DNA from: Actinomycetota bacterium
GTDB lineage: Bacteria > Actinomycetota > Geothermincolia > Geothermincolales > RBG-13-55-18
Assembly (NCBI GenBank): GCA_030019255.1
Contig: JASEFK010000012.1
Coordinates: 1 to 64,000, forward strand
Direction: 5' to 3'
Length of the DNA: 64,000 nt
The first letter of the stretch is position 1. The number at the start of each line of letters is the position of its first letter. Below are positions 20,025 through 21,801 of the stretch, piece by piece. The notes below the pieces were generated by a model, which was not told where the DNA came from, did not search any database, and saw only the letters and a list, made by a program, of their open reading frames with translations. Both the position numbers and the translations under genes were made by a program.

Positions 20025-20054
20025 TTGACACTATATCGGCGCTTTTCTTAGAAT
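20025..20054 (+). promoter_or_regulatory. Promoter of the rny leader RNA
   Basis: TTGACA (20025-20030) and TAGAAT (20049-20054) are 18 bases apart, a good sigma-A-type promoter. Predicted initiation near 20061 falls exactly at the first paired base of the downstream RNA structure. Confidence 0.7.
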
Positions 20055-20060
20055 AAAATT

Positions 20061-20208
20061 CGGCTAAGGTTATTGGCAGCTGGTTGATATCCGAGCGGCT
20101 TTGCCGCTTCATGGATAGCCGTAAGAGAGCAAGGAGTTGATACCTGAACCTTACGGTCAATCTAAACCGTAGATTTAACCTTATGCCGAGATTAAAACTC
20201 GGCATTTT
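20061..20208 (+). ncRNA. Structured leader RNA of unknown class upstream of rny
   Basis: A closed structure is readable directly. The 11-base-pair closing stem pairs 20062-20072 with 20176-20187 (one bulge at 20184). Inside, AGCGGC-TTT-GCCGCT (20094-20108) is capped on TATCC/GGATA (20088-20092 with 20113-20117). CCGTAAG (20119-20125) pairs with CTTACGG (20150-20156). An alternative hairpin, TACGGT (20152-20157) with ACCGTA (20166-20171), excludes the last one. The closing stem 3' strand shares ATGCC with the terminator 5' arm. This is the layout of a riboswitch or attenuator, or a terminated small RNA. I could not match it to a known class. Confidence 0.65.
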
Positions 20209-20209
20209 T
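20183..20209 (+). terminator. Intrinsic terminator before rny
   Basis: ATGCCGAG-ATTAAAA-CTCGGCAT followed by TTTTT: a perfect 8-base-pair stem with a U-run. It lies 50 bases before the rny start, so it either ends a separate small RNA or attenuates rny. A second hairpin, CCGGG/CCCGG at 20221-20236, follows. Confidence 0.85.
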
Positions 20210-20259
20210 GCGTTATTTCTCCGGGGTTTAACCCGGTTTGACATACAAGAAGGGAGGAA

Positions 20260-21801
20260 ATGACCATGGTATTGGCAATCATTATCGGAGTAGCGGCCCT
20301 GCTGGTGGGGGCCCTGGGTGGTTATTTGGGGCGGAAGATCATAGCCGAGTCCAAGATATCCTCCGCCGAGGATGCGGCCAGGAAGATCATAGAGGAAGCG
20401 GAGAGGACCTCGGAGAACAAGAAACGCGAGGCTCTACTTGAGGCTAAGGATGAGATCTTCGCCATGCGCAATGAAGCTGAGCGGGAGATAAAGAACCGCC
20501 GCAGCGAGCTCCAGAGGCTGGAGCGGAGATTGCTCCAGAGAGAAGAGCAGATGGACAACCGGGCGGAGAACCTGGAGAAAAGGGAAAAGGCCCTGGCGGA
20601 GAGGGAATCTCAGCTGGAATCCATGCAAAAGGAAGTGGAGAGAACCCTTCAGGAGCAGCAGGAGAAGCTGGAGAAGATAGCCGGTCTATCCAGGGAGGAA
20701 GCCAAGCAGATACTCTTGGCCCAGGTGGAGGAGGAGAGCAAGCGGGAAGCGGCCCAGATCCTGAAGCGGATGGAGCTCAAGGTGAGGGAGGAGGCCGACA
20801 AGAGGGCCAAGAACATCATCGCCAACGCCATCCAGAGATGCGCTTCCGATCACGTGGCGGAGACCACCGTTTCCGTGGTCCCCCTGCCCAACGACGAGAT
20901 GAAGGGGAGGATCATCGGTCGGGAAGGGCGGAACATCCGCACCTTCGAGACCCTTACAGGCATAAACCTGATCATCGACGACACCCCGGAGGCGGTCATA
21001 CTGTCCAGCTTCGACCCGGTGAGGCGGGAGATAGCGCGCCTGACCCTGGAGAGGCTCATCGCCGACGGCCGCATCCAGCCCGCCCGCATCGAGGAAATGT
21101 ACGAGAAGGCCAAGGCCGAGGTGGAGGCGGAGATCAAGGAGGTGGGCGAACAGGCCGTCTTCGAGGTGGGCCTCCACGGGGTCAACCCTGAGCTCATGCG
21201 GGTTCTGGGAAGGCTGAAGTACCGCACCAGTTACGGACAGAACGTGCTCAAGCATTCCCTGGAGGTGGCCCACCTGGCCGGGCTCATGGCCGCCGAACTG
21301 GGGACGGACATCAAGCTGGCCAAGAGGGCGGGCCTCCTGCACGACATCGGTAAGGCCATCGATCACGAGGTGGAGGGTTCCCACGCCATCATCGGCGCGG
21401 AGTTAGCCAAGCGCCTCAAGGAGAGTCCGGCGGTCATCCACGCCATAGAGGCCCATCACGGCGAGGTGGAACCCCAGACCATCGAGGCGGTGCTGGTCCA
21501 GGCAGCGGACGCCATAAGCGCGGCGCGGCCCGGGGCGCGGAGAGAGACCCTGGAGAGTTACATCAAGCGGCTGGAGAAGCTGGAGACCATCGCCGACTCC
21601 TTCGAGGGCGTGGAGAGCTCTTATGCCCTCCAGGCGGGCAGGGAGATCAGGGTCATGGTGAAGTCCGACGTCATCGACGACCTGGGTTGCATCACCCTCT
21701 CCCGGGAGATAGCCCGCCAGATAGAGGAGGAGCTGGAATACCCCGGCCAGATAAAGATAACCGTGGTCCGGGAGAAGCGGGTCGTGGATTACGCCAAGTG
21801 A
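20260..21801 (+). CDS. rny: Ribonuclease Y
   Basis: Membrane-anchored endoribonuclease that initiates mRNA decay in Gram-positives; 513 aa. N-terminal transmembrane helix (residues ~2-24), long charged coiled coil (~30-200), KH domain ([15 protein letters not shown]) and HD domain ([27 protein letters not shown] with the HD pair). ATG at 20260 sits behind AGGGAGG; a second ATG at 20266 is possible. Preceded by a terminator-containing leader, suggesting regulated expression. Confidence 0.97.

Follow-up and report, generated by a model that had tools for sequence, protein, structure and literature searches.

The rny gene of this Actinomycetota bacterium is probably preceded by a cis-acting transcription-attenuation leader, as read from the sequence of the locus and its relatives. 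RNase Y, the product of rny, initiates mRNA decay in many bacteria and determines how long their mRNAs last; the leader would probably throttle its output. In the window (the whole 64,000-nucleotide stretch of DNA that was analysed), a predicted promoter is followed by a structured RNA that runs into an intrinsic terminator, and the foot of the stem closing this RNA overlaps the 5′ arm of the terminator. The anatomy of the attenuator is well supported; the signal to which it would respond is an inference. With the transcript start placed by the promoter, the leader and the RNase gene would lie in one transcript.

The rny leader in the window

The elements of the locus, all on the forward strand, are:

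20025–20054, + strand: sigma-70-type promoter, TTGACA-N18-TAGAAT, the sole predicted rny promoter, conserved in 13/13 family leaders as TTGACA..TA(G/A)AAT
20062–20072, + strand: 5′ arm of the closing stem P1, GGCUAAGGUUA, at the predicted 5′ end of the transcript, pairing with 20176–20187
20087–20118, + strand: hairpin P2 (UAUCC..GGAUA, inner AGCGGC/GCCGCU), with pair counts from the family
20119–20156, + strand: hairpin P3 (CCGUAAG/CUUACGG), CCGU/ACGG being invariant in 13/13 family leaders
20160–20175, + strand: AU-rich segment AUCUAAACCGUAGAUU, a weak hairpin (P4) that contains GUAGAUU, 74% paired in the family
20176–20187, + strand: 3′ arm of P1, whose final 5 nt, AUGCC, are common to P1 and the terminator
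20183–20209, + strand: intrinsic terminator, AUGCCGAG-AUUAAAA-CUCGGCAU-UUUU, of a motif (GCCGAG-N3-9-CTCGGC-N-TTTT) that is rny-specific in the class
20223–20239, + strand: second hairpin, CCGGGGUUUAACCCGG, between the terminator and the Shine-Dalgarno region, found in the majority of family members, with differing stem sequences
20249–20259, + strand: Shine-Dalgarno region, GAAGGGAGGAA, conserved in family leaders
20260–21801, + strand: rny (RNase Y, 513 aa), matched at E≤1e-60 in 29 of 31 class genomes

The promoter has its −35 element (TTGACA) at 20025–20030 and its −10 element (TAGAAT) at 20049–20054, with an 18-nt spacer and 11 of 12 consensus matches; 1.0 promoter-like sites are expected per shuffled region, and this site is the best in the region. 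P1 joins GGCTAAGGTTA (20062–20072) to TAACCTTATGCC (20176–20187) through 11 bp with T20184 bulged, a duplex stronger than those of dinucleotide shuffles (p=0.026). Inside it, inner P2 is a perfect hairpin, AGCGGC-TTT-GCCGCT, and the arms of P3 are, at the DNA level, CCGTAAG (20119–20125) and CTTACGG (20150–20156). The terminator arms, ATGCCGAG (20183–20190) and CTCGGCAT (20198–20205), are followed by T5, share ATGCC with P1 and end 50 nt from rny. The whole leader folds with a z of −3.4, and of −4.1 when the 3′ arm of the terminator is left out; 0 of 200 shuffles were as stable. It also contains a short frame, MDSRKRARS*, the ATG of which is missing in other genera when family leaders are compared by eye.

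A first-pass annotation of this DNA had marked the promoter, the 11-bp closing stem and the perfect hairpin, and its coordinates for them are correct in the sequence; its terminator at 20183–20209, sharing ATGCC with the closing stem, is likewise borne out. It had also drawn two mutually exclusive stems. One is P3, with its invariant core, while the other (20152–20157/20166–20171) has fewer pairs than shuffles and no compensatory change in relatives.

By the consensus scans on which both the promoter and the terminator calls rest, no promoter is predicted at this locus in the stretch from the terminator to the start codon of rny (ATG, 20260). Transcription of rny from the leader promoter must therefore cross the terminator.

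Conservation within the family

A BLASTN search, followed by R1, a covariance model that takes in the −10 flank, found the leader as a single copy, solely 5′ of rny, in 13 of 15 family genomes. R1 recovered G004, which had been excluded from its construction, at E=9.4e-10, and gave no match outside the family at E≤0.05 among 247 phylum genomes. The leader is missing from G005, an incomplete genome in which no rny was found, and in G009 it has diverged, yet keeps an AGGCT/AGCCT stem and the GCCGAG terminator. The family leaders were aligned with MAFFT, anchored on the −10 box. P1 begins 6 nt from that box in 12 of 13 leaders and 7 nt from it in one. Pair counts over the family give 90% paired for P1, 89–97% for P2, 90% for P3 and 74% for P4. 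GGAUA in P2 is near invariant; the inner stem of this hairpin (97% paired) has one double change, and the outer stem is missing in a few relatives. In P3, the pair adjoining the CCGU/ACGG core shows a double change from A-U to U-A, and the hairpin could be extended by GGAUAUACCGU/ACGGUAAAUCU, which are paired in 86% of cells with little covariation. Double changes occur at only four pairs in the family and sequence conservation is high, so within-family covariation is modest.

Three further observations concern these leaders. GGAUAUACCGU has two possible partners, the 5′ strand of P2 or, extended, ACGGUAAAUCU. TTTTTGCGTTA, 3′ of the terminator, is likewise conserved. In G002, of the same genus, the terminator stem is mismatched and an insertion parts it from the T-run (L003, about 1646–1690), which points either to a naturally occurring variant with a damaged terminator or to a fault in the assembly.

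Rfam 15 has no match at this locus, whether the window or the interval is searched (best 20.3 bits against a cut-off of 61), nor at the rny leaders of Bacillota and Actinomycetota relatives. The first-pass annotation had proposed a novel structured RNA before rny and had named a lack of conservation in close relatives as what would speak against it; the RNA is conserved there, and this proposal is supported. 6S RNA (RF00013) was rejected as an identity for it, the sole genome match being on another contig (C1:155950–156128 in G000).

The leader stays with rny where recX or other genes intervene or where the upstream gene changes; its association with recA is incidental. This bears on another account of the interval, in which the recA/recX unit upstream ends in an ordinary terminator that happens to lie behind a chance promoter. 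In keeping with that account, the interval from recA to rny has no further predicted terminator. However, promoter, stem spacing and terminator sequence are co-conserved across differing upstream genes, the terminator sequence is specific to rny, and rny would be left with no predicted promoter, all of which makes a chance arrangement highly improbable.

The layout across the class

Leader sequences no longer align beyond the family, while the layout persists across the class: a promoter, a structured leader, a closing stem that shares its foot with the terminator's 5′ arm, and rny. In 27 class genomes the rny leaders retain a TTGACA-like/TATAAT-like promoter and a leader of about 110–140 nt, and the terminators of nearly all members lie 16–57 nt 5′ of the rny start, with about 100 nt measured in L023 and L025.

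In each clade the 5′ end of the transcript pairs with the segment adjacent to the terminator, using different bases: GGCUAAGG/CCUUAUGCC, GGCACAG/CUGUGCC, GGCGUAG/CUACGCC and UGCGUUAGGAUACCA/UUGGUAUUCUUGCGC are clade-specific versions of P1. Own partners pair at −16.9 kcal/mol, against −8.9 kcal/mol for partners swapped between clades. The duplex between the first 26 nt and the pre-terminator segment beats dinucleotide shuffles (p≤0.05) in 21 of 34 leaders where 1.7 would be expected, shuffles that ignore kinship; seven of the 34, six from Bacillota and one from Anaerosomatales, were picked after inspection. The duplex extends into the terminator arm in 31 of the 34. Duplex energy served as the overlap statistic, since the pairing probability to the terminator arm is already high in shuffled sequence, where GGC can pair with GCC by itself. 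Two class members, L029 and L034, have no significant closing stem in the duplex-energy test.

These comparisons weigh on the metabolite riboswitch, a candidate raised by the first-pass annotation. In a riboswitch here, the interior hairpins would form an aptamer and a ligand would stabilise the closing stem, allowing read-through. The family does have invariant elements (GGAUA, ACCGU..ACGGUAAA), and the stem overlaps the terminator as in ON riboswitches. But no core is conserved between families of one class, R1 being restricted to its family where the closing stem and terminator persist; there is no Rfam match, and rny is neither a metabolic nor a transport gene. We regard such a riboswitch as very unlikely, and this part of the annotation is not upheld.

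A terminator sequence almost specific to rny

The motif GCCGAG-N3-9-CTCGGC-N-TTTT has 13 matches in 30 class genomes, and 13/13 lie directly 5′ of rny. Across 297 Actinomycetota genomes the related motif GCCGAGC-N2-7-GCTCGGY-N-TTTT has 32 matches, with 28 before rny (assigned from rny coordinates, two settled individually and one through a match to a second covariance model, R2); of the other four, one follows a tRNA and three fall in apparent coding sequence. The backward control of this motif gave 0 matches in the 297 genomes. At 78 mostly Bacillota loci, 11 cases of CCGAG..CTCGG lie no more than 150 nt from rny, compared with 0.37 expected from flanking DNA (~30-fold), and an 11/12 promoter lies upstream in 10 of these 11 cases. 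Since terminators are normally not conserved in sequence, the hairpin probably has a second role, and the retention of its sequence in such distant genomes hints at a binding partner.

The wider phylum and Bacillota

Among the 297 sampled Actinomycetota genomes, rny is present in 207. In other families, 52 upstream regions were examined; the pipeline found both terminator and promoter in 37, and 14 of the 37 pass the closing-stem test; a promoter-independent scan for the closing stem gave a median p≤0.05 in 15 of 35 families, again with shuffles that ignore kinship. Six families (f24, f37, f50, f55, f63 and f69; type-B) have GGCAAA..UUUGCC stems in common, and most also carry AUAUAGAUU or ACAUAGAUU. 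R2, the model of this group, finds one site per genome, at rny. It misses the window leader, and we thus claim no single sequence-level family for the whole phylum. The predicted layout recurs in the class, in other Actinomycetota classes and in part of Bacillota; the Bacillota cases, like the type-B group, were compiled after inspection, and the overlap of stem and terminator is absent from most Bacillota leaders.

Other rny leaders came to light in Bacillota. Those of four Clostridiaceae (L063, L086, L097 and L119) have ATACAAATACTGGTTTATCATAT..ATGACACCTTTT in common but no CCGAG terminator, and are by their sequences another clade-specific conserved rny leader. Lachnospiraceae and relatives (L094, L111, L116–L118, L120 and L121) share GTTGTA..TACAATGAAAAYTAAATAAGGAGGTGCTCCTGT, and their Shine-Dalgarno AGGAG could pair with CTCCT immediately 3′. 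Five Bacillaceae leaders (L076, L077, L081, L096 and L110) have AATGTACATGCCGACATT..AGCAAGAGGAGGTG in common, which may correspond to the structured portion of a 5′ UTR of the B. subtilis type. A Gut-1 RNA (RF01706) match lies near rny on an uncultured Clostridia contig (L050, 3769–3839).

Predicted default termination and how it might be relieved

The terminator fold is favoured over the fold without a terminator by 8–17 kcal/mol (11.6 kcal/mol in the window leader). Given this gap, termination is the predicted default, and read-through must be promoted by something. Only the last 3–5 bp of P1 compete with the terminator (3–4 bp in the window) and much of P1 often survives, so P1 alone would be a weak antiterminator that at most delays or weakens termination unless helped. 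The suggestion in the first-pass annotation that folding could decide read-through is only partly sustained: the foot of the stem does compete, against a terminator fold that is much the better.

What the consensus scans find is the arrangement of an attenuator, with a promoter 5′, a terminator before the coding region and no promoter after it; the alternative pairing uses part of the terminator stem and is kept in relatives (3–5 bp; 31/34). Default termination at an efficient-looking terminator, behind a strong promoter and a stable fold, would also suit a trans-acting sRNA, the terminated transcript of ~150 nt being the product and rny living off leaky read-through. Yet the element is always directly 5′ of rny, was never relocated in the genomes searched, and has an interior sequence that is unconserved outside the family; an sRNA is unlikely on these grounds, and less likely than a cis attenuator.

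As a cis attenuator, the leader would work as follows. The dedicated promoter would yield a structured RNA of ~150 nt running into the conserved terminator, and the extreme 5′ end of this RNA would pair back just 5′ of the terminator, the last 3–5 bp holding the terminator's 5′ arm. The closing stem, together with some factor or kinetics, may then raise read-through, most likely in response to RNase Y itself or to decay activity in general. With little RNase Y present, or with the enzyme occupied elsewhere, the leader would stay intact, its 5′ strand would retain the stem foot, and RNA polymerase would enter rny. Free RNase Y, by contrast, would cut the AU-rich loops of the leader, the 5′ strand would be lost and the terminator would fold unopposed. 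A cut anywhere between the P1 arms would take away the 5′ strand.

Several observations touch on a link to RNase Y. ATAGAT is the top enriched 6-mer over 34 families (10.65 against 2.0 expected; 0 of 200 shuffles), and its copies are mostly in regions predicted to be unpaired. ATAGAT is absent from the window leader, which has only GUAGAUU, in P4. In B. subtilis, RNase Y has a preference for G/A within unstructured, AU-rich RNA (PMC11780869), and GUAGAUU, with a G/A dinucleotide in an AU-rich context, is a possible RNase Y site. B. subtilis RNase Y also autoregulates via its 164-nt 5′ UTR (PMC10303841), an analogy that makes autoregulation by RNA decay plausible at the window leader, as the first-pass annotation had supposed it might be.

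The promoting factor might instead be RNA polymerase, contact between leader and polymerase giving read-through and coupling decay to transcription capacity. In B. subtilis, RIP-seq shows a ~64-fold enrichment of rny mRNA on RNA polymerase, and there is a genetic link between rny and rpoB/rpoC (PMC11077062). No such terminator is described for the B. subtilis leader, however, no known polymerase-binding RNA family matches, and 6S RNA is encoded elsewhere in the genome, so that we hold this reading to be improbable.

More tentatively than the attenuator itself, the leader and its CCGAG/CUCGG terminator may be an ancient RNase Y feedback sensor of Actinomycetota and Bacillota. If true, RNase Y would cut the leader while it is still being made, freeing the terminator, and the cell would gauge its spare RNA-decay capacity via transcription termination.

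Comparison with known systems

6S RNA has a similar length and a stable fold but a different architecture. The E. coli rne 5′ UTR mediates RNase E autoregulation, and RNase E 5′ UTR families are in Rfam. Like the rny leader, it is the structured leader of a gene for a decay-initiating endonuclease; the enzyme is another one, and feedback acts via mRNA decay with no terminator. In ON riboswitches and protein-dependent attenuators the 3′ arm of a closing stem also overlaps the 5′ arm of the terminator and read-through is needed, whereas here the overlap is 3–5 bp and there is no class-wide aptamer core. What is unusual against known attenuators is that the sequence of the rny terminator hairpin is conserved across two phyla.

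A known leader of rny itself is the B. subtilis rny 5′ UTR (Korobeinikova 2023, PMC10303841), a 164-nt leader with its own promoter and RNase Y feedback. It differs in acting through RNase Y cleavage and RNase J1 decay of the mRNA, with no terminator or attenuation described (PMC10303841), and by eye we saw no sequence shared between the window leader and Bacillaceae rny leaders. This is the sole description we found of how the RNase Y level is set, and it runs through mRNA decay; a leader with an rny-specific terminator, present in Actinomycetota and in part of Bacillota, implies that control has a second layer, at the level of transcription. The element described here is not among the Rfam families, and it offers simple direct tests of the balance between RNA synthesis and decay. 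A search of the open literature, with subscription-only work and preprints outside its scope, returned no paper on an rny attenuator. Leader control of RNase genes and attenuation by a terminator are each known; as far as we have seen, their combination with a terminator conserved across phyla is new.
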